A stretch of DNA of 64,000 nucleotides from Haloterrigena sp. KLK7 (GTDB taxonomy: Archaea; Halobacteriota; Halobacteria; Halobacteriales; Natrialbaceae), in the NCBI RefSeq assembly GCF_037914945.1, contig NZ_CP149787.1, positions 3,038,001-3,102,000 on the forward strand, read 5' to 3'. Shown here one piece after another: positions 5,110 to 53,400 of the stretch (position 1 is its first letter; each line of letters opens with the position of its first letter). The notes below the pieces were generated by a model. The model worked only from the letters and a program-made list of their open reading frames with translations, did not search any database and was not told the DNA's origin. Both the position numbers and the translations under genes were made by a program.

Positions 5110-6258
5110 ATGTGTAGTGAGTCGACGGACCTCGAGGACGGGCGGGAGACCGGTGGGAGCGACGGCGCCGGAACCGACGTCTCTGGAACGGCCGCCGACC
5201 TCGAGAGAGGTGGGGCGAACGACGCCGCGAGGTCCGAGTCGGCGGCGCCGGCGCTCGCGGTCGAGGGGCTCTCGAAGACCTTCGGGAGCGGCGACGAGGT
5301 CGTCACGGCCGTCGAGGACGTCTCCTTCACGGTCGAGTCCGGCGAGGTGATCGGGCTGCTCGGTCCCAACGGCGCCGGCAAGACGACCACGATCAAGTCG
5401 ATTCTGGGACTGCTCCTCCCGGACGAGGGGGCGGTTCGGATCCACGGCATCGACGTCTACGACCGTCCCAAGGCGGCCTACGACCACGTCGACGCTATGC
5501 TCGAGGGGGCGCGCAACGACTACTGGCGGCTCACCGTCCGGGAGAACCTGCGGTACTTCGCGGCGATTCGGGGCCGAAACCCGGACGCCCTCGCGGACCG
5601 CCACGACGAACTGCTGGAGCGACTCGACCTCGCCGAGAAGGCCGACACCGCCGTCCGCGACCTCTCGCGCGGGATGAAACAGAAGGTGTCGCTCGCGAGC
5701 GTCCTCGCGGGGGACGTCTCCGTGGCCTTCCTCGACGAACCGACGCTGGGGCTCGACGTCGAGAGTTCGCTGACGCTCCGGCGCGAACTCGTCCGGCTCG
5801 CCGACGAGCGCGGCCTGACGCTGGTGGTCTCGAGCCACGACATGGACGTCATCGAGGCCGTCTGCGACCGCGTGATCATCATGAACGAGGGCCGGGTCGT
5901 CGTCGACGACACCGTCGAGAACCTGCTGGCGGCCTTCGAAACCCAGGGCTACCGAGTCACCGTTCGCGGCGCCGACGGGTCGGTCCTCGCCGCTCTCCGC
6001 GAGCGGTTCGACGTGAGCGACGTCGAGCGCCTCGAGGACCGCACGCGGTTCGCGGTGGCGGCCGACTCCGAGGCGTTCTACCGGCTGACCGACGCGCTGG
6101 AGGACCACGGGCTCGAGGTCGTCGCGGTCGATACCGTCCAGCCCGACCTCGAGGACGCGTTCGTCGAACTGACCGGCGGAGGCGGGACGGAAGCGGGGAG
6201 CACCGATCGGGCTTCGAATCACGGAGCCGGGGCAGATCTCGGGGGTGAGACGCGGTGA
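5110..6258 (+). CDS. ABC transporter ATP-binding protein (ABC-2 type exporter)
   Basis: The ATPase has Walker A GPNGAGKT at residues 85-92, the signature LSRGMKQK in the middle, Walker B VAFLDEPTLGLD and the H-loop SSHDMD. A C-terminal domain of about 100 residues follows, as in the DrrA/NatA group. The first 45 or so residues are acidic and poorly conserved, so a later start is possible, although ATG 5110 gives a full frame. The next gene encodes the permease and overlaps this stop codon, so the two form a translationally coupled exporter. The substrate (lipid, drug or polysaccharide) is unknown. Confidence 0.9.
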   Translation: MCSESTDLEDGRETGGSDGAGTDVSGTAADLERGGANDAARSESAAPALAVEGLSKTFGSGDEVVTAVEDVSFTVESGEVIGLLGPNGAGKTTTIKSILGLLLPDEGAVRIHGIDVYDRPKAAYDHVDAMLEGARNDYWRLTVRENLRYFAAIRGRNPDALADRHDELLERLDLAEKADTAVRDLSRGMKQKVSLASVLAGDVSVAFLDEPTLGLDVESSLTLRRELVRLADERGLTLVVSSHDMDVIEAVCDRVIIMNEGRVVVDDTVENLLAAFETQGYRVTVRGADGSVLAALRERFDVSDVERLEDRTRFAVAADSEAFYRLTDALEDHGLEVVAVDTVQPDLEDAFVELTGGGGTEAGSTDRASNHGAGADLGGETR

Positions 6259-7055
6259 GCGTCGATGCTCGGTCCGGACGGACGGGTGGCTACTATCACC
6301 TGCTGCGGGCCGTGATCGTCCGCGATCTGCTGATCTGGATCCGGTACCCCGTCAACGCCGGCATGCGACTGTTCATCAACCTGCTGTTCTTCGGGATGGT
6401 GCTGTACGGCGGCACCCTGCTGGCGGGTCAGGCGATCACGGACTCCCTCGAGGGGCTGATCGTCGGCTACTTCCTGTGGACGCTGTCGACCGGCGCGTAC
6501 TCGGGAATCGTCGGCGACATCCAGTCCGAAGCCGGCTGGGGGACCCTCGAGCGCCACTTCGTCACGCCCTTCGGCTTCGGGCCGGTGGTGCTCGCCAAGG
6601 CGGTGGCGATCGTCTTCCGAACGTTTCTCACGTCCGCGGTCGTCCTCGCGGCGATGCTGCTGGCGACCGGGACGCGACTCGACCTCCACCTGCTGACCGT
6701 CGTCCCCGTGGCGACGCTGGCGATCGCCTCCGCGCTCGGACTCGGGCTCGCCATGGGCGGACTGAGCGTCCTGTACAAGCGGATCTCCAGCGTCGTCAAC
6801 CTCCTCGGGTTCGCGTTCGTCGGGCTGATCACGGCGCCCGTCTTCGACGTCCCGTGGCTGGCGGCGCTGCCGCTGGTCCAAGGGAGCGCGCTGCTCCAGC
6901 TGGCGATGCGAGGCGGGGTTCGGCTCTGGGAGTTCGATCCCGCGGCGCTCGCCGTCCTCGTCGCGACGGCCGTCGGCTATCTGGCGATCGGATACGTCGT
7001 GTTCGGGTTGGCGACGAGGCGCGCTCGACGGCTGGGCGTGCTCGGGGACTACTGA
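6255..7055 (+). CDS. ABC-2 type transporter permease
   Basis: The 266-residue membrane protein has about six hydrophobic segments typical of ABC-2 permeases and starts with GTG at 6255, overlapping the stop codon of the ATPase gene by four bases. A cytoplasmic loop with the conserved LERHFVTPFG-type segment, where permeases contact the nucleotide-binding domain, follows TM2. It should form the transmembrane half of a homodimeric exporter with the preceding ATPase. The gene ends about 215 bases before psmA. Confidence 0.9.
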   Translation: MSVDARSGRTGGYYHLLRAVIVRDLLIWIRYPVNAGMRLFINLLFFGMVLYGGTLLAGQAITDSLEGLIVGYFLWTLSTGAYSGIVGDIQSEAGWGTLERHFVTPFGFGPVVLAKAVAIVFRTFLTSAVVLAAMLLATGTRLDLHLLTVVPVATLAIASALGLGLAMGGLSVLYKRISSVVNLLGFAFVGLITAPVFDVPWLAALPLVQGSALLQLAMRGGVRLWEFDPAALAVLVATAVGYLAIGYVVFGLATRRARRLGVLGDY

Positions 7056-7212
7056 CTGCCGTCCGCGCCCCAGTCTCGCGCCGGTCGGCTTCGGCGAATA
7101 TCTCCGGTTCGCTCGCCGAATCGGCGACGGAAACGCGACTCTCCGAGTTATTCCCCGTATCGGGCCGCAAGGAACCAGAGACAATTGCCACCTACAAGCC
7201 GTGTGTCAAGAA

Positions 7213-7222
7213 TTCTTATATA
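7213..7222 (+). promoter_or_regulatory. TATA box of the psmA-psmB operon
   Basis: The AT-rich stretch CTTATATATG stands out in a GC-rich spacer and lies 48 bases before the psmA start. That allows a transcript start about 25 bases downstream and a short leader. This is a sequence-based prediction. Confidence 0.55.
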
Positions 7223-7269
7223 TGGGGGTCCCTTACCCGAGGTGAAGGTCTCCCACGACCAGAGAACCA

Positions 7270-8016
7270 ATGCAAGGGCAATCCCAACAGCAGGCGTACG
7301 ACCGCGGGATCACGATCTTCTCCCCGGACGGACGCCTCTACCAAGTCGAGTACGCTCGCGAGGCCGTCAAACGCGGCACCGCGAGCGTCGGTATTCGCAC
7401 GCCGGACGGCGTCGTGCTCGCAGCAGACCGCCAGGTCAGTTCGTCGCTCATGGAGCCCTCGAGCGTCGAAAAGATCCACAAGGCCGACGACCACGTCGGT
7501 ATCGCGAGCGCCGGTCACGTGGCCGACGCGCGCCAGCTCGTCGACCTCGCTCGCCGACGCGCACAGGGCGAACAGCTCCGGTACGGCCAGACGATCGGCG
7601 TCGAGACGCTGACGCGGGCCGTCACCGACCACATTCAGGAGTACACCCAGACCGGCGGCGCGCGCCCGTTCGGCGTCGCCTTGCTCGTCGGCGGTATCGA
7701 CGACGGCGAGCCGCGCCTGTTCGAGACCGACCCCTCGGGGACGGACTACGAGTGGCAGGCGGCCGCGATCGGTAGCAACCGCAACGAGATCCAGGAGTTC
7801 CTCGAGGAGAACTACCGCCCGGACGCCGACCTCGACGCGGGCATCGAGCTCGCGCTCCGCGCGCTCGGGTCGGCCGACGACGACCCGGTCAGCGCCGAGA
7901 ACGTCGACCTCGCGACGATCGATACGGAAGACGAGACGTTCCAGACGGTCTCCCAGGAGCGACTCGAGTCGATCGTCGCCGAGATCGACCAGCCGGAGGA
8001 GGAGAGCGATGAATAA
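7270..8016 (+). CDS. psmA: proteasome subunit alpha
   Basis: The 248-residue protein starts with MQGQSQQQAYDRGITIFSPD, the haloarchaeal alpha-subunit N-terminus that forms the gating region of the 20S core. The segments GRLYQVEYAREAVKRGT and VVLAADRQ are typical alpha-ring sequences. The C-terminus is long and acidic, as usual in halophiles. It builds the outer heptameric rings of the archaeal 20S proteasome and docks PAN-type ATPases. It overlaps psmB by eight bases, so both subunits are probably translated together. Confidence 0.97.
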   Translation: MQGQSQQQAYDRGITIFSPDGRLYQVEYAREAVKRGTASVGIRTPDGVVLAADRQVSSSLMEPSSVEKIHKADDHVGIASAGHVADARQLVDLARRRAQGEQLRYGQTIGVETLTRAVTDHIQEYTQTGGARPFGVALLVGGIDDGEPRLFETDPSGTDYEWQAAAIGSNRNEIQEFLEENYRPDADLDAGIELALRALGSADDDPVSAENVDLATIDTEDETFQTVSQERLESIVAEIDQPEEESDE

Positions 8017-26110: not shown

Positions 26111-26181
26111 TGGGACCGCCGAGAATTGAACTCGGGTCCTACGGACCCCATCCGCAGAGGATACCACTACCCCACGGTCCC
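26111..26181 (-). tRNA. tRNA-Pro(GGG)
   Basis: The minus strand folds into a 71-base cloverleaf. The acceptor stem GGGACCG pairs fully with CGGTCCC, followed by discriminator A. The T-arm CCGAG-TTCAATT-CTCGG is perfect. The anticodon stem TGCGG/CCGTA (one G-T pair) closes the 7-base loop ATGGGGT with anticodon GGG. No intron is visible. The gene lies just upstream of cbf5 in genome coordinates, and its 3' end faces the accessory island. Confidence 0.93.
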
Positions 26182-42871: not shown

Positions 42872-43232
42872 GGTAGCCGTCCCAGTCCTGGCTCTCGGGC
42901 TCGCGGATGCCGGCATCGGGCTCGCGGAGTTCCTCGACGTACACGGGTTCGACTTCGTCGCCGGTCTCGATGTCGTCGGTCGTCACTTGACCGATCGCGC
43001 GGACCGACCGGCTCTCACCGTCGGACGTCTCTCCGATCTCGAACTCGACGACGGCGAGGGTATTCGGTTGGCGGACGCCGGGGGGCGTCGCCGTGCTCGT
43101 CGTCCAGGTGATGACTTCACCGGTGTACTCACTGAGGTCGATCGTCTCCACCGGTTCCGCACCGCCGCGACTGCGCGGGTGGCCGGGGTAACTGATCGAA
43201 CCGTCCTCGTAGCGGATCGCTTCCATCGTCAT
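42855..43232 (-). CDS. DUF35/OB-fold protein, partner of the thiolase
   Basis: The 125-residue protein has the OB-fold part of DUF35 proteins (TGEVITWTTSTATPPGVRQP, LAVVEFEIGE). I do not see the N-terminal zinc-ribbon cysteines of classical members. It overlaps the thiolase stop in an ATGA junction. In archaea, DUF35 proteins bind thiolases and can bridge them to HMG-CoA synthase, so a complex with the upstream gene product is likely. Confidence 0.8.
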   Translation of the reverse strand: MTMEAIRYEDGSISYPGHPRSRGGAEPVETIDLSEYTGEVITWTTSTATPPGVRQPNTLAVVEFEIGETSDGESRSVRAIGQVTTDDIETGDEVEPVYVEELREPDAGIREPESQDWDGYRFEPV

Positions 43233-44398
43233 CGTGCTGCCTCCATGATGGTCGTGATAACGCAGTTACCGAAGCCGCCGACGTTACAGCAGAGGCCGAC
43301 GTCCGCGTCGACCTGTCGCGGCCCCGCTTCTCCGATCAACTGTTCGTAGATCTCGACCCCTTGTGCGACCCCGCTGGCGCCCAGCGGGTGACCCTTCGAC
43401 TTGAGTCCACCGGAGGTGTTGATCGGCAACTCTCCGGTGTCACGCTCGGTGTAGCCCTCCTCGACGAGTTTCCACGCTTCGCCCTGCTCGGCAAAGCCGA
43501 GTCCTTCCATCTGGAGGAACTCGAGGATAGTGAACATGTCGTGGAGTTCGGCGACGTCGATATCGTCGGGGCCGTAGCCGCTCATCTCGTAGGCGCCCTT
43601 CCCGCTCTCGACGACGCCGCCCATCACGGTCGGATCCTCGCGCTCGTGGACGACGTGGGTGTCCGTCGCGCCGTCGACGCCCGAAATGACGACGTAGTCG
43701 TCGGTGTACTCCCGAGCGGTCTCCTCGGAACAGAACAGGAGGGCGGCCGAGCCGTCGGTGACCGGACAGAAGTCGTACAGCCGCAGCGGATCGGCGATGA
43801 TCGGCGACTCGAGGATCGTCTCGACGTCGACCTCCTTCTGGAACTGCGCGTGGGGGTTGTCGACGCCGTTCCTGTGGTTCTTAGCGGCGACCCACGCGAG
43901 GCTCTCTCGGGGCCCGTCGAACCGCTCGAGGTAGTTGCGCGCCGTCAGCCCGGCGAACGAGGGGAGCGTGACGCCGTGTTTGTACTCGACGGGGTGCCCG
44001 ACGGAGGCGATGATGTCGGTCGATTCGCCGGTCGTCCGATGAGTCATCTTCTCGCCGCCGACGAGCAGCGTCATATCGCTGGCGCCGCTGGCGATCGACT
44101 GCCAGGCAGCGTACATGCCTGCGCCGCCGCTCGAGCTGGTCTGGTCGACGCGCTGGGTGTACGCCGGCATCGCGCCGAGGTCGTGAACGAGGGCGTTCAT
44201 CACGCCCGTCATGCCCTCGAACTCGCCGCTGGCCATATTCGACACGTACAGATGGTCGACGTCGCTGGCGTCGGCACCCGCGTCCGCCAGACACTCGAGG
44301 CCGGCCTCCGAAAGGAGGTCGAGGATCCACTCTCCCTCGCGTTGCCCGAACTGGGTCATCGATGCGCCGATGACTGCTACATCTTGTGCTGTTGTCAT
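43229..44398 (-). CDS. thiolase-family protein with Cys-to-Ser at the nucleophile
   Basis: The 389-residue protein has the thiolase layout: an N-terminal VAVIGASMTQFG, a catalytic-loop region, an HDMFT histidine region, GGLKSKGHPLGASG and a C-terminal CCNVGGFGN with cysteine. The position of the nucleophilic cysteine reads VDQTSSSGGAG, with Ser88 where CASG or CSSG is normal. It may be non-canonical or use another nucleophile. It is an operon with the DUF35 protein, as with archaeal acetoacetyl-CoA thiolases. I start at ATG 44398. Confidence 0.85.
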   Translation of the reverse strand: MTTAQDVAVIGASMTQFGQREGEWILDLLSEAGLECLADAGADASDVDHLYVSNMASGEFEGMTGVMNALVHDLGAMPAYTQRVDQTSSSGGAGMYAAWQSIASGASDMTLLVGGEKMTHRTTGESTDIIASVGHPVEYKHGVTLPSFAGLTARNYLERFDGPRESLAWVAAKNHRNGVDNPHAQFQKEVDVETILESPIIADPLRLYDFCPVTDGSAALLFCSEETAREYTDDYVVISGVDGATDTHVVHEREDPTVMGGVVESGKGAYEMSGYGPDDIDVAELHDMFTILEFLQMEGLGFAEQGEAWKLVEEGYTERDTGELPINTSGGLKSKGHPLGASGVAQGVEIYEQLIGEAGPRQVDADVGLCCNVGGFGNCVITTIMEAAR

Positions 44399-44851
44399 CC
44401 CGTAGACGACGAGTACCACGAAGTTCAGCGTAAAAACACGGCCTTGCGACAGCAGGTGAGACGGCGCAGAAGCTATTTACTTCCGTTCGGTCACCGCTCG
44501 AGACGATCATCTGGCGGGCATCGTCTCGAGACGGACGGTGGCGCCTCGACTCTCGGGGAACGCACCGAGCGCCGTCGCTGGTGGGTGTCGAGAACGGCGA
44601 GAAGAAATGGAGTCCGTTGGTCGCCGCCGAACATCTCGCGCATCAACCGATAAAAGCCAATAAAATCTAAAAAGAAGGTGAATATTTCCGCATTTAAATC
44701 GACGGTTCAACGCCGGGAGAGATTCCTCATGGATGTCATCAATATAGCCGCGTAGCTCGTCATGACCGTCTTGAATGGAGTGAAGATCAACGTCTACATG
44801 CCTGTGTTATTGGCTTTGACGCTGCTCTGCAGAATCTACCCATTGACTCTT
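44399..44851. other. intergenic region at the edge of the GH16 insert
   Basis: This 453-base gap marks a drop in GC content, from typical haloarchaeal sequence at its left end to AT-richer DNA from about 44650. A minus-strand frame near 44640-44770 could encode DLHSIQDGHDELRGYIDDIH and may be a gene relic. I see nothing else in it. Confidence 0.4.
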
Positions 44852-45793
44852 CTAACCTTCAGAATCGCCGGATTCTTCGGCGAGGTCCCACACTCGTACC
44901 CAATCAATTACCATCTCTTCGATCCATTCTTCGTTTAGGTTTGCGTTGCCGAAGCGGTTGACATGGTTCGAGAAGATGAGTCCAAACGGGAGGGCGGCCC
45001 CATTGTTTAATGTCGCAAACAGTTCTGATGGACCATCTCGTGTGTTGATGTGGTCTCCGTTAAAGTACCATTCAATGCGGTCTTCGAACCACGCACAACC
45101 ATACGTGTTGAACGTCTCGGTAAGATCGATCTCTGTTTCCGTTGAGTGCGTGTCGTGGGCATGTGTATCCTGATCGCCGGGCTCAGTGCTCTGCGTCCAG
45201 TGGGCGTCCGTTTGGAAGGTTTGTCGCTCGCTTTCAGGAGTATCTCCTTGCTGAAAGAGTTCAACCACGTCAATCTCGGGCGGCCAATTCGTATTCGCAG
45301 GCATCGCCCAGAACCCGGGAAGGATGCCGGTTCGGCCGGGCATCTGCATTCGCGCTTCCATATACTGTCCCCCGCCGCCCTTCACTGGATTCACTGGAAT
45401 TCCTTCTGGGGGGTGCCAGTCCAGTCCGTAGGTGCTGGAATTGAGCACCCCCTGATAGCAGCCATCTGGTCCAATTCCCTGTGATTCGACCTGGAGGCGG
45501 CACTGATTACCATCCACGACAACGTGATCTTCGCTCACGGCTGCGTCGTCATCCGGAATCGCATTGCTGTTATCAATAAAGCTGATTGCCCAGCGTGAGC
45601 GGTCTAATTCGTTTCCGTCCCATTGTTCGTCGAGACGAAGCGTCCAGTTTTCCTCTTGGCGTTCTGGTGGTGGGGCCAAATCGCTGGTAGCGACATCGTT
45701 GTTGAGGCGACGGTTTGCGAACCAGCCGATGCCCGCGAGAGTTGAAACCCCGACAGTGCCTTTCACGAGGACGTTTCGGCGGCTGGAAGTCAT
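44852..45793 (-). CDS. secreted glycoside hydrolase family 16 protein
   Basis: The 313-residue protein has a twin-arginine signal (SRRNVLVKGTVGVSTLAGIG). The GH16 domain covers about residues 50-305, with catalytic motif EIDVVE: nucleophile Glu173, Asp175 and acid/base Glu178. GH16 enzymes cleave beta-1,3, beta-1,3/1,4-glucans or galactans, or transglycosylate. It starts 74 bases after the stop of the GT2 synthase gene, so it is probably in one transcript with it. A second GH16 gene lies 2 kb upstream. The GC content is lower than in the neighbouring genes. Confidence 0.9.
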   Translation of the reverse strand: MTSSRRNVLVKGTVGVSTLAGIGWFANRRLNNDVATSDLAPPPERQEENWTLRLDEQWDGNELDRSRWAISFIDNSNAIPDDDAAVSEDHVVVDGNQCRLQVESQGIGPDGCYQGVLNSSTYGLDWHPPEGIPVNPVKGGGGQYMEARMQMPGRTGILPGFWAMPANTNWPPEIDVVELFQQGDTPESERQTFQTDAHWTQSTEPGDQDTHAHDTHSTETEIDLTETFNTYGCAWFEDRIEWYFNGDHINTRDGPSELFATLNNGAALPFGLIFSNHVNRFGNANLNEEWIEEMVIDWVRVWDLAEESGDSEG

Positions 45794-45866
45794 TGGAGTA
45801 GACGTTGGGGCTGCCTTTGTTTACGCATTATCCAACGGGATTGAGAGGGTATAGCGTAATTGGGTA

Positions 45867-47129
45867 TTACTTGGGAGTCACCTCGAACGTTAGCGTTCGC
45901 TTTTGGATCGTGGCCTTGAGCGCGAACAGGATCGGGAACGTCCACAGCGTCGCGTACAGGAGTTGCGTGAGGATGTTGGAGAGCGAGTAGAACTTGATGG
46001 CTTGGGTGGTACTCTCGAAGTCTATCGCGCGCCTGCTCTCGCTGTAGGAGCGATAGACGTGGTGGAGCCAGACGAGGAGGTTCGCCGTTACGATTCCCGT
46101 CACGACAAGCGGAAGTGCTGGTGCGCTTCCAAGGAGCGTGAGAACGAGGACAGCAATGCCAACCGGAACTCCGATGATATTGGTCATAGAGATAATCTGG
46201 CTCGTTACAGTGTAGTTCATGAACTGGAGTTTCTCCCGCCAATTCAGCAGCGACGCGGTGAGTACTTCGTATGGCCCGTGCACCCAGCGCGTTTTCTGGG
46301 TGAGCCATGCATCGAGCGTTTTCGGACACAAGTCTTCGATGTACACGTCGATGATTCCGTGCGAGAATCCGTGTTTGTACGCTTCGATGCCGAGGTACAT
46401 GTCCTCCGTGATGGTGTAGGGATTCCAGCCACCTAGCTCGTAGAGATCCTCCGCGCGGAGGAAATATGCCTTGCCGAGCAGTTGGTACGGTTTCGTTGAC
46501 GTCCGCTCGTACACTGTCTTACACCACGTTGCAACGCCCATCGATTCGAGCATCGGCAACCACCCGTCGCCAATATTCCGGACTGTTTGTTTCGCCTGCA
46601 CGATATCGTAATCCTCGAGCCCAACAACACCATGTTTGAACAGCCCCGGATCGAATCGAGTGTCCGCGTCGAGGACGGTGACGATCCCCTCGAAGTCGCG
46701 TGTGTACAATGTGTACGTGAGGGCGCGGGCCTTGTTGCGTGGCATTGTCACTGCTTCTTTTCCCCGCTCTTGTTCGATACGCTCCCACACTGGATCATCT
46801 TCCTTGACCAGCACTGTCTCAATATCGAGGTCGGACGCGTATTCGCCGATCACGTCGTCGTTTTCCTCGTAGATCAGGTACGCCGTGACACGGTCGGCGG
46901 GATAGTCTGCCGCGTGGACGTCTTCGAGGGTGTCCTCGATTATCTCTCGTCGCTCTTTATGTGCGGCGATCAGTACGTTGACGTGGGGGTACTCGTCTGG
47001 TTCGCGGGTGGGGACGATCTCTTTCGGTTTGAGATATAATGAAATGACCCCGAGGTTATTGACGAAGTAGATTCCTTGTGTAATTATAAACAATACAACG
47101 ATTGATTCGTACAGGTTTAAACCGATCAT
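45867..47129 (-). CDS. membrane family 2 glycosyltransferase (polysaccharide synthase)
   Basis: The 420-residue protein has one N-terminal membrane helix, a GT2 domain and about four C-terminal helices. The key motifs are VLDAD (residues 152-156), TED (240-242) and QKTRW (277-281). These are the D, DxD, TED and QxxRW signatures of processive synthases such as cellulose, hyaluronan and curdlan synthases. It probably polymerises and extrudes a beta-glycan. It lies between two GH16 genes and is transcribed with the second. The GC content is low, suggesting transfer. Confidence 0.9.
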   Translation of the reverse strand: MIGLNLYESIVVLFIITQGIYFVNNLGVISLYLKPKEIVPTREPDEYPHVNVLIAAHKERREIIEDTLEDVHAADYPADRVTAYLIYEENDDVIGEYASDLDIETVLVKEDDPVWERIEQERGKEAVTMPRNKARALTYTLYTRDFEGIVTVLDADTRFDPGLFKHGVVGLEDYDIVQAKQTVRNIGDGWLPMLESMGVATWCKTVYERTSTKPYQLLGKAYFLRAEDLYELGGWNPYTITEDMYLGIEAYKHGFSHGIIDVYIEDLCPKTLDAWLTQKTRWVHGPYEVLTASLLNWREKLQFMNYTVTSQIISMTNIIGVPVGIAVLVLTLLGSAPALPLVVTGIVTANLLVWLHHVYRSYSESRRAIDFESTTQAIKFYSLSNILTQLLYATLWTFPILFALKATIQKRTLTFEVTPK

Positions 47130-47230
47130 GCTCTAGGATTTTCTGTCATACAATCGAACTTTCGAGATACAGCACGGCCGTCGCAGACGCTACACGCCTG
47201 CACTGTGATCAGAGATAGGCCCTCCATTCG

Positions 47231-47389
47231 CTAGTCGTTCTCAGAAGGGGTGGTGATGTTCTTCTTCCCGGACCACAGTTCCCTACCGCACTCGACACAG
47301 AGACAGCCTCCATCGGCTGTCAGGGTTGTCGGCGCGCCACATGGGAGGCATTTGACCAGTGCGTTTCGGGTATTCCGGGGGCGACTCAT
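47231..47389 (-). CDS. zinc-finger microprotein
   Basis: The 52-residue protein (MSRPRNTRNALVKCLPCGAP) has CLPCG and CVECG pairs, 17 residues apart, enough for one zinc site. It lies upstream of the GT2 gene on the same strand, separated by about 100 bases. The role is unknown, and the genes around it suggest a link to the polysaccharide locus. Confidence 0.6.
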   Translation of the reverse strand: MSRPRNTRNALVKCLPCGAPTTLTADGGCLCVECGRELWSGKKNITTPSEND

Positions 47390-47816
47390 TGTGCACTCTC
47401 CTGCTGACGAAGCTCAGTCCGCGTACTATCAAGCGTCACTATCACCAGCCTGCCGCGCTATGTGTTAAAAACGAGAAGGACGTTACAAGGTGTAGTCTTG
47501 CGGTGGGCAGATGAAACTCTTCGTGATTTCGACCGTTTACGAAAACTCTCATCATTGTATATCTCACCAGTTATGATAGGGAATCTTCACATAGACATAA
47601 TATAAGCTTGGTTGCCGAGCAATATTTTTTGCGAGCATTAAGAGTGGCGTTTTACTGGAGAACAACGATATTGCGCTCAAGACATATCCTCCTTCTCTCA
47701 ACTAACCAGCGGAGAATTCGACAACATCCACTCAAACAGCAAAAAGAGACGGTCCCTCTGCCCGGTCACTCATTCCCGCCAACAGCAAAAAGCTAAGTTT
47801 ACTGGGTAATGATCGA
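47390..47816. other. AT-rich spacer between the GH16 gene and the microprotein
   Basis: This 427-base region is clearly AT-richer than the genome average. No convincing gene is seen, and the one 62-codon frame is not protein-like. It should contain the promoter of the zinc-finger microprotein and GT2 genes. Confidence 0.45.
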
Positions 47817-49391
47817 TTACGGTGTCCGAACCCGCACTTCATCGATATAGACACCACCGGTGTCAATATCGAAGTGCAGAACGCCGCCGTCGTAGCTCGA
47901 ATCCGCAACGGTGATCGTACCGTCGGTCTCACCATCTACCCGGATGCGGATCTCTTCCTCACTGAATTTGATTTCTGCAGTATATAACTCAAGCGCAGTT
48001 CCGTTCGCGTATGTGCCATCGCCACCGAGCCAGCCCCATCCTGCAGTATCGAGCAGTGCGATCTGATCACGATGAATATCCAATCGGTAGCAGTCGCCGA
48101 CCACCCTGCTCGCGTCACCGAAGCGGCAGTTCAATTGCTGTGTATCCGAGTGATCGAACGCGAAGTCAAACTGCAGCGTTGTCCCGCGTTCGAACGCAGG
48201 TTGACCGTCCCATGTCAATACGGACCATGGGATATTGGTGACGGCTGAGTGCGATCCAGACGACGCCACATCACTGCTGACGCCCCATGCGCCCGTTGTG
48301 TACCACTCTCCGAACTCTCCTCCGTCGAAATTGTCGAGGATTATCCACTCGTCAGATTCGTCCGTCTCGTTGGTCTCTTCCGAGCTATTTTCATCGCTTT
48401 CACCGTCGAAATCCCAGACACGAACCCAATCGATTACCATCTCCTCAGTCCACGGGTCGTAGAGGTCGGCTTCGCCGATACGATTCACGTGATTTGAGAA
48501 AATTAATCCAAACGGCCGGGCGTCCTCGTGGTTCAACGTCTCTAGCAGTTCATCGGGCGAATCCCGCGTGATGACGTGTTCGCCATTGAAATACCATTCA
48601 ATGCGGTCTTCGAACCACGCACAGCCGTACGTGTTAAATGTCTCAGTGAGATCAATCCCCGTCTCAGTCGCGTTACCATTGTGGAGATGAGTATCCATAT
48701 CTCCCGGTTCGGTGCTTGAGGTCCAGTGGGCGTTCGTATGCAGCGTTTGGCGCTCGCGCGATGGGTTGTCGCCATACTGGAACAGTTCGACAACGTCGAT
48801 CTCCGGTGGCCAGTTCATGTTCGCCGCGTGGCCCCAAAATCCGGGAAGAATACCCGTTCGACCGGGCATCTTGATTCGGGCTTCCATGTACTGCCCTCCT
48901 TCTCCCGCGGCGGGATCGATCGGAACGCCTTCTGATGGATGCCATCCTTCACCTCCCGTACTCGAGTTGATCACTCCTTGGTAACACCCATCTGGCCCCG
49001 TTCCTGTAGATTCAATCAAGAGACGGCACTGATTATCCTCGACGACAACGTGCTCGGGGCTGACAGATGCATCGTCGTCTGGAATCCAGTCCTCGTGGTC
49101 GATAAACCCGACCCCCCAACGAGAGGTATCGAACTCGTTCCACTGTTCGTCGAGGCGAAGCGACCACTCTCCCGCGGGGCCGTCGGGATTGTCCCCAGTC
49201 ACGAAATCTGTTTGCTCTTCTTCCACAATATCGGTGTCGGACGACTCATCTGTTGTTCCCTCGTCCTCACTCTTTTTCCAGTCTTTTCCTTGCGATTTTT
49301 TATATTGCTTTGCGGCGGCACAACCGATTCCAGTTACGGAAAGCACGCCGACGGCGGATTTTAGAAGTGCACGTCTTCGTGAGTCATTCAT
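47817..49391 (-). CDS. secreted GH16 protein with C-terminal accessory domain
   Basis: The 524-residue protein has a twin-arginine signal (DSRRRALLKS) with a lipobox-like GIGC at residues 21-24. A low-complexity acidic linker follows, then a GH16 domain (about residues 75-335) with EIDVVE at 197-202 (Glu197, Asp199, Glu202). A second acidic linker leads to a C-terminal beta-sandwich-like domain (about 354-524), possibly carbohydrate binding. The GH16 part is a close paralogue of the downstream gene. It could trim or remodel the glycan made by the GT2 synthase. Confidence 0.9.
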   Translation of the reverse strand: MNDSRRRALLKSAVGVLSVTGIGCAAAKQYKKSQGKDWKKSEDEGTTDESSDTDIVEEEQTDFVTGDNPDGPAGEWSLRLDEQWNEFDTSRWGVGFIDHEDWIPDDDASVSPEHVVVEDNQCRLLIESTGTGPDGCYQGVINSSTGGEGWHPSEGVPIDPAAGEGGQYMEARIKMPGRTGILPGFWGHAANMNWPPEIDVVELFQYGDNPSRERQTLHTNAHWTSSTEPGDMDTHLHNGNATETGIDLTETFNTYGCAWFEDRIEWYFNGEHVITRDSPDELLETLNHEDARPFGLIFSNHVNRIGEADLYDPWTEEMVIDWVRVWDFDGESDENSSEETNETDESDEWIILDNFDGGEFGEWYTTGAWGVSSDVASSGSHSAVTNIPWSVLTWDGQPAFERGTTLQFDFAFDHSDTQQLNCRFGDASRVVGDCYRLDIHRDQIALLDTAGWGWLGGDGTYANGTALELYTAEIKFSEEEIRIRVDGETDGTITVADSSYDGGVLHFDIDTGGVYIDEVRVRTP

Positions 49392-49580
49392 TTATCGTCA
49401 TACACCAGTTATATAGTGAAGAAATTGCATACGTGAATATCTTTCTATTGATATATTCACTTATTATGAGGTGTTCCATACCGCGCTCAGCGTCCATGTG
49501 GTCAATATCAAACCCGCCAATGCGATCAAACGCCACCTCCACACCGGACTGAGAGTCCCAATACAGGTGATTTCTGGCAT
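49392..49580. other. upstream region of the large GH16 gene
   Basis: This short AT-rich stretch should hold the promoter of the GH16 gene. The minus-strand frame across it (up to 49620) is not recognised as a protein. Confidence 0.35.
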
Positions 49581-50192
49581 GTGGATACACTGGCGTACTT
49601 CGCAGGTGCGTTACCACCACTGAGGTTCATCTGCGAAGAATTCGAAGCCGCTACCGAAGAAAGACCATTACAGCAACGAACGCGACTTCCGTATCACGTA
49701 CAACCAACGCAGTTCACCTCCGTCCCCTGCTGGTCAGGCGACGATGTCGGACTTCTCCTCACCTCACTTCCTGACGATTATCGCAAACTGGAGTGTGGTC
49801 CCTTCCACACTCGTCGACGGCTCTATCTCTTCAGCCGCGCGACCAGCGGCGAATATGGCATGATCTTGACCTCCACTGCACCCCGATGCGCCGATACCAA
49901 CAATCACTCCCCACACATTCACTGTTACGAAGCAGAAAAACACTCGATTGACAGCGCTCGCGCTCGTTTTCGTCGTGTTGTACGTGATGTTCGCACTCAC
50001 GGACTGACTCGAGGCGAGAGATTCCTACACGCCCGTGAATTCTACAGCGATCAGAATCAGAATAAGAGGTGTACTGAGGAGTACTGCAAGTATAGAGAAA
50101 CCCAAATAGAAGGTTTATCGACACGGACGTTCGTTCGAATCTTCCGCATAAACGTAGTTAATATGCTCAAAGGAATACATCCAGTTTCGTAA
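49581..50192 (+). CDS. doubtful 203-codon ORF, no family recognised
   Basis: The frame (MDTLAYFAGALPPLRFICEE) is open for 203 codons in DNA of about 50% GC, which is longer than most chance frames there. It shows no domain, signal or halophilic acidity. On the other strand, 49764-50114 contains a frame with hydrophobic helix-like segments (FYLGFSILAVLLSTPLILIL) broken by TAG at 50025. Only one of the two readings can be the former gene, and I cannot decide between them. Confidence 0.25.
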   Translation: MDTLAYFAGALPPLRFICEEFEAATEERPLQQRTRLPYHVQPTQFTSVPCWSGDDVGLLLTSLPDDYRKLECGPFHTRRRLYLFSRATSGEYGMILTSTAPRCADTNNHSPHIHCYEAEKHSIDSARARFRRVVRDVRTHGLTRGERFLHAREFYSDQNQNKRCTEEYCKYRETQIEGLSTRTFVRIFRINVVNMLKGIHPVS

Positions 50193-50221
50193 CCCAACAG
50201 CAAACAATGCTGCGGACTCGT

Positions 50222-50752
50222 TCACGAAAATCCTACCAAGGAGCGTATTCCCGGCCAGTTCTCCCATAAAATCATACATTTCCCCAACTCCAGTAGCATA
50301 CTTAATATTCTAGTTATTATTCCTATAGGACTATCATCTGATACGATCTCTCCCTGGAACTCGGGTAGAACCTCAGTTATCCCGAAGAATTCCTCGAATC
50401 CAAGAAATAAGGAGCCAAACACAATGAAAACCCCAGCACTGATCCCAAACCAAATTCGTGCCTTCCTCTCGGCTTCACCGAACACGTCTGCCACTGATTG
50501 ATCAGCAGTTTTTGTTTCGATTCTCGGTTCCGTATGCACGTGTGGTGGGGTATGGCCATTCCAATACCGTGGCAAGGTTTTCTGGAATCAATATAAGATG
50601 CGATGGAAGTACACAGCCAAACTTCCAAGCAGAAGCACGAATGTGGCCATCACATCCATATCGAGAAAAATGGTGACCCACCAGGATTGATCAGATCGAA
50701 ACGTGGGAATATCGGCGATACTCTCGATGAGACTGACGGTGAATATAGGGAG
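50222..50752 (-). pseudogene. membrane protein gene interrupted by one stop codon
   Basis: A continuous minus-strand frame encodes IFTVSLIESIADIPTFRSDQ, a hydrophobic segment with MATFVLLLGSLAVYFHRILY, a TGA at 50588-50590, then FQKTLPRYWNGH. A second helix (WFGISAGVFIVFGSLFLGFE) and a third near the end follow, up to a stop at 50222. The part after the TGA could also be a separate 117-residue protein starting with TTG 50575. The reading on both sides looks coding, so I infer a nonsense mutation, perhaps in a tryptophan codon. Confidence 0.4.
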
Positions 50753-50923
50753 GATTCAAGGGCAAGAGCAGCTGAGAGTCCTACGTATCGACGCCCCCAG
50801 AGACCTAGAACGCCCCGAACGGTTTCACGAGCCGGGAGATACGGCCCGAAAATGCGCGTGAGAATTCCTCTGCCTCTGCCTCTACCTCAACTTAGCGGCA
50901 AGGGGTGCCGCGTTGAGTAGGGG

Positions 50924-52426
50924 TTAATCCCCTCCTCCAAACATCTCGCGCATCATCGGGTGCATCTCCATCATCTGCTCTTCGGCGATCTCCTCGTAGA
51001 GCTTGTAGGTGATGGAGACGGCCAGCAGCAGGCCGGTCCCGGTGACGCCGCCGATGGTACCGAGCATGTTCGCCCAGACGGCCAGCAGGCCGACCAGCGC
51101 GCCACCGATGACGGTCACTTGCGGGATGTACCGCTCCATGACCTTCTCGATGACGCCGACGTTCTGTCGGAAGCCGGGGATCTGCATCCCGGAGTTCTGG
51201 ATCTGTTTCGCGGTGGCTTCGGGGCCCATGTTGGTCGTCTCGACCCAGAAGATGGCGAACACCGCGCCGCCGACGACCATGAACGTCACGTCGATGGACA
51301 TCCGGATCAGCACCTGCCAGGCCTCTTGGCCGACGTCGGCCGTGAACCACATCCAGTCGGCCGGCGAGTAGATCGGCGCGAAGTAGTAGAAGAACCCGCC
51401 GTCGGGCTGTCCGTTAGAGTAGGTGCCGAGCCACGCCAGTTCGCGTCCGAACAGTACGATCGGCCCTTCGCCGTTGCCGCCGCCCTGCGTGGCGAGGATC
51501 TGGCCGATGAACTGCAGGTTGGCCTGCAGCGCGCGAACGAGGATCATCGGCAGGACGCTCGCGTAGATGAGCTTCACGGGGAAGCGACCGCGGGCGCCCT
51601 TGACGCGGGCGTGACTGAGCGGGATCTCGACCCGCACGGACTCCGCGTAGACGACGATCCCGAAGATCAGCAGCGTCGTCAGCAGCGCGATGAGCTGTCC
51701 GCCCTGGTCGGTGACCAGGAGGGTCATCAGCCCGTCACTGGAGACGAGCGAACCGACCTGGATTTCGCCGGTGAAGATCATGTACCAGTTGTAGAAGAAC
51801 CCGCCCTGGGTCGGCTGCAGGAACCCGGTGACGAGGCTCTGGCTCACGCTGGCGATGATGAACAGGCCGATCCCGCTACCGACGCCCCACTTGCTGACGA
51901 CTTCGTCCATGTACAGCAGGAGGATCCCGCCGGCGAAGATCTGGGCGAAGATCAGCAACTGGACCTGCGTCTGATCGAACTGGAGACCGCCGAGGCTCAA
52001 CGACTGCATGGCCGGAAGGAAGTCGCCGGCGAACACCATCGGGAGCGCGGTCAGCGCCGTCATGATGACGACGAGCAGCTTCTGCAGTCCCTGGTAGAGC
52101 ACCTGATCACGCGGGTCGTCCGTGTCGAGACCGAGCAGGTTCGCTCCACCGAGCAACTGCAAGACGATGCTCGCGGTGACGATCGGTCCGATACCGACCT
52201 GCAGGATCGAGCCCATCTCGCCGGCCAGTACCGAGCGGAACTGGCCGAAGAGGTCGTTGGCCCCTCCGGTTTGCACCCCGAGCAGCGCGATGTTCGTGAG
52301 GAAGAAGTACAACACGAGGATGCCGGCCGTCCACATGAGCTTGCGCTTGAAGGGAACGTGTCCCTCCGGACGGCGCACTGTGGGCATCCGCGTCAAGACC
52401 GGTTCGGCGGCTTCCTTCCATCCCAT
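50924..52426 (-). CDS. secY: preprotein translocase subunit SecY
   Basis: The 500-residue protein has ten membrane helices. The plug and pore segments are visible after TM1 (GVQTGGANDLFGQFRSVLAG), and GMQIPGFRQNVGVIEKVMER lies in the loop before TM9. The acidic GW-KEAAEPVLTRMPTVRRPE start is typical of haloarchaea. It forms the protein-conducting channel with SecE and Sec61-beta. It is the last gene of the unbroken ribosomal run and starts four bases after rpl15. Confidence 0.97.
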   Translation of the reverse strand: MGWKEAAEPVLTRMPTVRRPEGHVPFKRKLMWTAGILVLYFFLTNIALLGVQTGGANDLFGQFRSVLAGEMGSILQVGIGPIVTASIVLQLLGGANLLGLDTDDPRDQVLYQGLQKLLVVIMTALTALPMVFAGDFLPAMQSLSLGGLQFDQTQVQLLIFAQIFAGGILLLYMDEVVSKWGVGSGIGLFIIASVSQSLVTGFLQPTQGGFFYNWYMIFTGEIQVGSLVSSDGLMTLLVTDQGGQLIALLTTLLIFGIVVYAESVRVEIPLSHARVKGARGRFPVKLIYASVLPMILVRALQANLQFIGQILATQGGGNGEGPIVLFGRELAWLGTYSNGQPDGGFFYYFAPIYSPADWMWFTADVGQEAWQVLIRMSIDVTFMVVGGAVFAIFWVETTNMGPEATAKQIQNSGMQIPGFRQNVGVIEKVMERYIPQVTVIGGALVGLLAVWANMLGTIGGVTGTGLLLAVSITYKLYEEIAEEQMMEMHPMMREMFGGGD

Positions 52427-52932: not shown

Positions 52933-53400
52933 TTATCGCATCGATTCTAGCAGGTCGTTAATCTGCCCCGTTGTATGCTTTCCGAGTTGACCGCCCTCGG
53001 CCGTCGGTTTCTTGATACCCTCGTGACCGCCACGCGGGGGGTGGAGTCGCAGCGTCGGCGACAGCCCCTGCTCGCGCAGCGTCGTCTCCTCGGCCAGGAG
53101 CGCGTCGGCCAGGTCACCGAAGTCGTCGTAGTCGGTGTTGTCGGCCAGCCACTCCGCGTCGACGTCCGACTGGTCGCCCTCGAGGGGCTCGGCGCGCTTT
53201 TCGAGCACGGTCTCGAGCACCTCGGCGTCGGGTTCGCCGTGGGCGACGTAGTCGTTGACCTTGTGGATCATCCCCGTGTAGGTGTCGGTCTCGGGGACGA
53301 GCGCACAGTGGTTGACGCTGTGGATGTTGAGCATCTGCAGCGTGTCCTCGACGTCTTCCTGTCGGTTCACCTCACCGCGTACCTGCACGACAGCCTTCAT
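52933..53400 (-). CDS. rpl30: 50S ribosomal protein uL30
   Basis: The 155-residue archaeal-length uL30 starts [20 protein letters not shown] and ends in a rRNA-binding C-terminal part with LRLHPPRGGHEGIKKPTAEG. Bacterial L30 is only about 60 residues, so the extra half is the archaeal/eukaryotic extension. Its ATG shares a base with the rps5 stop codon. Confidence 0.96.
   Translation of the reverse strand: MKAVVQVRGEVNRQEDVEDTLQMLNIHSVNHCALVPETDTYTGMIHKVNDYVAHGEPDAEVLETVLEKRAEPLEGDQSDVDAEWLADNTDYDDFGDLADALLAEETTLREQGLSPTLRLHPPRGGHEGIKKPTAEGGQLGKHTTGQINDLLESMR

Follow-up and report, generated by a model that had tools for sequence, protein, structure and literature searches.

Organization of the locus

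In the window, by which we mean the whole 64,000-nucleotide stretch analyzed, a membrane GT2 gene (GT2a) lies between two GH16 genes (GH16A and GH16B); all three are intact, full-length and on the same (minus) strand. This is the arrangement that an earlier note on the sequence had described, and its coordinates, Pfam families, motifs and Tat-type N-termini were all confirmed. The features of the locus and its flanks are:

43229-44419, minus strand: thiolase-like gene (Pfam), in the flank outside the module, beyond the distal end of the island
44624-50955, no strand: inserted low-GC island of ~6.3 kb at the 3' end of secY (empty site in congeners; GC profile)
44624-44645, plus strand: 22-bp direct repeat, distal copy, the old secY 3' end, now decayed (repeat search, sequence comparison)
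44852-45793, minus strand: GH16A, 313 aa; Tat-type N-terminus without a lipobox Cys, EIDVVE catalytic motif
45867-47129, minus strand: GT2a, 420 aa; membrane GT2 with DxD, TED and QKTRW
47126-47227, minus strand: candidate 33-aa ORF overlapping the GT2a start (ORF listing)
47231-47389, minus strand: ORF for a 52-aa CxxC/CxxC zinc-finger-like microprotein (ORF listing, relatives search)
47817-49391, minus strand: GH16B, 524 aa; GH16 domain between a Tat-type N-terminus with Cys24 and a ~170-aa C-terminal domain
49528-49626, minus strand: C-terminal remnant, ~32 aa, of a second GT2 family, GT2b, upstream of GH16B (tblastn, blastn)
50924-52426, minus strand: secY, the insertion target at its 3' end (translation, C-terminus MFGGGD)
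50934-50955, plus strand: 22-bp direct repeat, secY-side copy (repeat search, sequence comparison)

The GT2a stop and the GH16A start are separated by 73 bp (45794-45866), a gap as short as had been claimed although not the 74 bases given. The zinc-finger microprotein reported upstream of the GT2 gene is present as a CxxC...CxxC ORF ~100 bp upstream of GT2a. Its relatives are scattered (14/100 genomes in a genome search, its own included) and are not tied to GT2 or GH16 carriers; the microprotein is therefore not established as part of the system, and we dropped it as a conserved component. GC content falls from ~0.65 to 0.45-0.57 between ~44.5 and 50.9 kb of the window. The drop noted at both borders is thus present, with its borders at the ends of a 6.3-kb insertion and not at the ends of the GH16 genes. 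Beyond secY, ARAGORN called a tRNA-Pro at 53194-53286 inside a ribosomal-protein-like frame on the opposite strand (52933-53400), a call that is probably false; a second tRNA-Pro (ggg) lies at 26111-26181.

The locus lies on an island inserted at secY

The DNA of secY is 89-94% identical in five congeners, and the thiolase-like gene adjoins secY in congeners too, which marks a conserved neighbourhood. In the congeners L217, L218 and L220 the site is empty: sequence matching the window up to 44645 runs straight into secY at 50923, the two window positions overlapping when placed on the target. L219 and L221 lack the island at this site as well, but in them the sequence beside the secY stop differs. 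On the secY side the window reads TTTGGAGGAGGGGATTAA where its relatives read TTCGGCGGCGGCGACTAA; as translated, the island-side sequence rebuilds the MFGGGD* end of secY with synonymous, apparently element-derived codons. The 22-bp repeat has only two exact matches in its own genome, one at each island end. Flanking direct repeats and an empty site in relatives, the marks of an integrative element, are thus both present, and the island is horizontally acquired.

In Thaumarchaeota, elements that insert into the 3' end of a protein gene and restore its ORF have been described (PMC6563490). The secY island shares with the integrated mobile elements of archaeal protein-gene 3' ends treated there the short repeats, the empty site and the restored target ORF; it differs in having no recognized integrase, and secY is not among the targets named. 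No integrase or transposase was recognized on the island in Pfam and PHROG scans of a selection of its small ORFs or by tblastn with a Haloarcula plasmid integrase. Because it is horizontally acquired and contains gene remnants, the island may be decaying.

The GH16 proteins

GH16A and GH16B matched Pfam PF00722 with 40.8 and 43.2 bits (2e-10 and 4e-11) against a gathering cut-off of 22. The EIDVVE catalytic motif, of the ExDx(x)E type, was read in both translations, and E173, D175 and E178 are invariant in 13 aligned haloarchaeal GH16 sequences. The best NCBIfam match of both proteins was EglC (NF052454), at 66.5 and 59 bits; the cut-off is 700, and neither protein belongs to this equivalog. 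Among solved structures the GH16 family profile best matched Pyrococcus furiosus LamA (2vy0; 1e-32), and it is also close to bacterial laminarinases.

The twin-arginine N-termini of the two proteins read SSRRNVLVKG and DSRRRALLKS. A lipobox-like Cys is present in GH16B and absent from GH16A, which, judging by its N-terminus, has lost it; we count this against the module reading developed below. Most members of the GH16 clade carry RR together with a lipobox-like Cys (LAGC, LTGC, VAGC and similar). In three that seemed to be without a lipobox such a sequence was found upstream, with a GTG start in the Haloarcula sp. GH36 protein, without a standard start in L190 and with a frame change in L189. 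Because most members carry both signals, the predicted site of GH16 is the outside of the cell membrane, at the point of exit of a nascent chain.

GT2a resembles polymer synthases and is not linked to GH16 elsewhere

GT2a belongs to Pfam Glyco_trans_2_3 (2.6e-19), and its translation contains DADT (DxD), TED and QKTRW, the combination of DxD, TED and QxxRW typical of processive membrane GT2s of the BcsA/HAS/NodC kind. Its NCBIfam scores are far below the cut-offs (CelA, 49 against 699 bits; PgaC, 27 against 422; NodC, 25 against 550), and a sequence search returned weak matches that include cellulose synthase structures. An AlphaFold (AF2) model built with 14 haloarchaeal sequences (pLDDT 87.7) has one N-terminal TM helix, a GT-A core and C-terminal TM helices. 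The best PDB fold matches were BcsA and hyaluronan synthases (HAS), with TMq up to 0.62 and BcsA first by E-value; the archaeal mannosyltransferase PcManGT was a top match too, at a TM-score of 0.66 by target length, and it also matches GT2a by sequence. In the alignment the first nucleotide-binding Asp region reads YE..D across the GT2a family. Because cellulose and hyaluronan synthases lead the matches in sequence and fold, with PcManGT also close, GT2a is on sequence and model a polymer-synthase-like enzyme. Grouping with protein N-glycosylation transferases, which the earlier note had named as an outcome against its proposal, was not seen, since cellulose and hyaluronan synthases led the matches; we accordingly do not favor a GT2 of N-glycosylation.

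Relatives of GT2a occur in 25/392 Halobacteriales genomes (at 1e-20). None of the inspected loci of these relatives, with flanks of ~1.5-7 kb, has a GH16 neighbor, and co-occurrence with GH16 in the same genome is at the level of chance (3/25 including its own genome, P 0.22). Neither co-conservation of the GH16 genes with this GT2 nor conservation of the gene order, both named earlier as points to check, was borne out: to date the order GH16-GT2-GH16 has been seen in this genome only. Being unique and on an inserted island, it is not a conserved haloarchaeal locus. With no GH16 neighbor seen elsewhere, a partnership of GT2a with GH16 is suggested by gene position in this single genome. In Haloterrigena and its relatives (L059, L060, L061, L154) a paralogue of GT2a has DxD, TED or QxxRW altered in several genomes and is possibly a pseudo-enzyme, as its sequence suggests.

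A second GT2 family, GT2b, recurs beside GH16

Searches returned GH16s with 48-57% identity from Halorubrum, Natronocalculus, Haloterrigena salina (our name for genome G001, from its matching locus) and others. In the GH16 tree a 17-member clade (support 100) holds all GT2b-linked GH16s. GT2b proteins are ~420 aa long, with DED, TED and QRRRW (alignment A3). Leaving the window genome aside, the clade has 12 chromosomal loci, at 10 of which GT2b adjoins GH16, as it also does on one plasmid; the pairs are mostly on the same strand, GT2 first, with a gap of 0-140 bp or an 8-bp overlap. The chromosomal arrangements are:

GT2b then GH16, same strand: L058, L062, L063, L068, L189, L190, L191
GT2b then GH16, same strand, 8-bp overlap: L050
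GT2b and GH16 convergent: L066
GH16 first, then GT2b: L070
Solo GH16s of the 17-member clade: L065 and L067/L069

The plasmid pair, in Haloarcula sp. GH36 (L323 3775-8873), was found by its GH16 and likewise has GT2b followed by GH16; as GT2b its GT scores 681 bits. The pair lies 1.7 kb from a phage-integrase-like gene, and the GH16 start as annotated leaves out the Tat/lipobox signal that lies upstream. Among core GT2b genomes 10/11 have a GH16 (P 3e-12), or 4/5 (P 3e-5) once the genomes used to build the profile are set aside; one core GT2b genome, N. versiforme (G246), has both genes unlinked. In the H. salina copy that follows GT2b (L050 11928-12599) the segment with the catalytic motif is lost and the frame is still open. 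A sequence search with the GT2b profile found no solved structure, and the fold comparison applies to GT2a alone, the AlphaFold model of GT2b having a pLDDT of 45.

The window GH16s lie within the clade of GT2b-paired enzymes (support 100). In the window genome GT2b is represented by remnants and no intact copy adjoins GH16, the neighbor in the window being GT2a. The earlier idea of a synthase paired with a secreted beta-glycanase therefore gains from the conserved GT2-GH16 adjacency, but GT2a does not share in that support, the adjacency involving the GT2b family. Literature searches found no archaeal GT2-GH16 system.

Remnants and trees point to synthase exchange

The window genome contains a third GH16 (L049 9466-10479), which shares 83% identity with GH16A in the aligned region and is preceded by a C-terminal GT2b remnant of ~170 aa. 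In a tblastn search this remnant matched the tail upstream of GH16B (48% identity, E 0.001), and blastn aligned window 48391-49627 with L049 9249-10466 at 77%. The DNA of the L049 gene resembles GH16B upstream and in the N-terminal part (77%) and GH16A further on (85%), and for this reason the GH16 copies of the genome look recombined. The simplest history that we infer is that GT2b was lost here and GT2a installed.

The third copy lies on a second insertion (L049 8781-10864), with the truncated GT2b, at the 5' end of a replication factor C-like gene (rfcL, named from its sequence), flanked by a perfect 23-bp direct repeat whose copies are 2,061 bp apart. No attachment site common to both islands was found: the genome has only two exact copies of the secY repeat, and the rfcL repeat differs.

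In the GH16 tree, GH16A, GH16B and the L049 GH16 group together (98) within the 17-member clade; GH16s from exopolysaccharide (EPS) clusters fall outside it and bacterial GH16s further out. The linked GT2bs do not form one clade. They fall into ~4 separate lineages of the GT2b tree, in which long branches leave the exact joins unsure: the core group, H. alkaliphilum, H. distributum, and H. salina with the remnant of the window genome. The hydrolase therefore stays while the synthase changes, and because the lineages are separate, the GT2b-GH16 link is better accounted for by a functional tie than by inheritance of a single block from one ancestor, as far as trees can tell.

Context of haloarchaeal GH16s and a viral homologue

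Natronocalculus amylovorans, the owner of L068, has a putative GH16 beta-glucanase gene and showed no growth on beta-glucan, lichenan, curdlan or pachyman (PMC9726719), which counts against a catabolic role. Haloarchaeal GH16s that are more distant occur within EPS clusters, in the company of genes for a flippase, GT1/GT2, FemAB-like proteins and polysaccharide deacetylase. On the strength of this growth result and this context, action of GH16 on a self-made glycan is favored.

The IMG/VR contig L235, of a tailed virus of haloarchaea, encodes (5431-7374) a 647-aa tail-module protein that combines GH16 with the C-terminal domain of GH16B; it aligns with GH16B (34%, 2e-70) and with the H. salina GH16 (38%, 1e-78), and the C-terminal domain (~170 aa) is common to all three. 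Its gene neighbors encode a tape measure, baseplate hub and baseplate wedge, and one L235 tail protein matches haloviruses PhiCh1, phiH and ChaoS9. The viral GH16 joins the tree just outside the GT2b-linked clade (95, on a long branch) and is likely, by its domains and neighbors, a tail depolymerase. Profile scans of viral contigs found no relatives of GT2a or GT2b.

Interpretation of the locus

The arrangement is real, intact and strain-specific, and is built from a conserved, mobile haloarchaeal GT2-GH16 pairing: the intact genes and motifs, the recurrent GH16-GT2 adjacency elsewhere, the exchange of GT2 lineages and the insertion at secY are established observations. We consider it somewhat probable that what we see is a recombinant version of a mobile module by which haloarchaea make surface polysaccharide, consisting of a membrane GT2 and a Tat-exported GH16 endo-beta-glycanase, the latter usually lipid-anchored, to judge by its signals. 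A processive-type GT2 would build the polymer from a nucleotide sugar on the cytoplasmic side and move the growing chain across the membrane; outside, GH16 would cut the chain, setting its length, freeing stalled chains or releasing the polymer. In this strain GT2a would now replace the decayed GT2b partner. Processivity of the GT2 and trimming by GH16 are both inferred roles, and from the GH16 type the product would most likely be beta-glucan-like, with beta-1,3 or mixed linkage.

Were the GH16s instead nutritional laminarinases acting on algal or microbial beta-glucans, GT2a would be an unrelated neighbor on the island. The closeness of the GH16 profile to LamA and bacterial laminarinases and the lack of co-conservation of GT2a with GH16 agree with this, but GH16 recurs beside GT2b, no sugar transporter or beta-glucosidase was recognized on the island, and both the Natronocalculus growth result and the EPS clusters around other haloarchaeal GH16s oppose it, so that we regard it as quite unlikely. 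Chance may instead have assembled GT2a and the GH16s as cargo of a decaying integrative element, without joint function in this strain. However, none of the three main ORFs is truncated or has a broken motif, the intergenic gap is just 73 bp and one genome retains three GH16 copies; against these stand the insertion with its 22-bp repeat, the GT2b remnants, the H. salina copy without its catalytic segment and the unique GT2a-GH16 order, and this account seems unlikely. That GT2a makes a glycolipid or lipid-linked sugar in the manner of PcManGT, with GH16 acting on unrelated glycans, appears improbable: the fold and sequence matches to PcManGT and the YE..D region suggest it, whereas the retained QxxRW and TED and the first rank of BcsA by E-value do not.

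Beyond the recombinant surface-polysaccharide module, a wider reading, tentative and on balance doubtful, is a plug-in system for surface polymers that moves horizontally: its constant part would be a Tat-lipoprotein GH16, the GT2 would be swapped and surface glycans would vary between strains, the viral GH16 being a matching tail depolymerase. Since tailed viruses carry the same GH16 and C-terminal domain, virus attack may then drive synthase exchange. The GH16-GT2 pairing and the viral tail homologue point to an unstudied surface polysaccharide, for which the conserved GT2b-GH16 pairs offer small two-gene targets; the homologue also hints at the material that some haloviruses may cut through on the way to their host.

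Comparison with known systems

Pairs of a synthase and a hydrolase for secreted beta-glycans are textbook knowledge in bacteria, as in BcsA/BcsZ. Common to that system and the present locus is a membrane GT2 (DxD, TED, QxxRW) beside a secreted endo-beta-glycanase that processes the product, a role that here is predicted. The archaeal GT2 differs in having only 420 aa and no PilZ domain by Pfam, and the hydrolase is a GH16 with Tat-lipoprotein-type export, not a GH8. Pyrococcus furiosus LamA, a GH16 endo-beta-1,3-glucanase, shares the ExDxxE-type motif and is distant in sequence. The rhizobial endo-1,3-1,4-beta-glycanase EglC, although the best NCBIfam match, is ~30% identical over the catalytic half only, and no GT2 is annotated within 7 kb of eglC at the S. 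meliloti locus that we viewed. Also close in kind on the synthase side, by description, are RiGT2 of Romboutsia ilealis, which unlike GT2a has a PilZ domain, and BgsBA of Sinorhizobium meliloti; both are GT2s with D,D,D,QxxRW and bacterial (1,3;1,4)-beta-glucan synthases (PMC10374906), whose product is a beta-glucan that GH16-type enzymes could cut.
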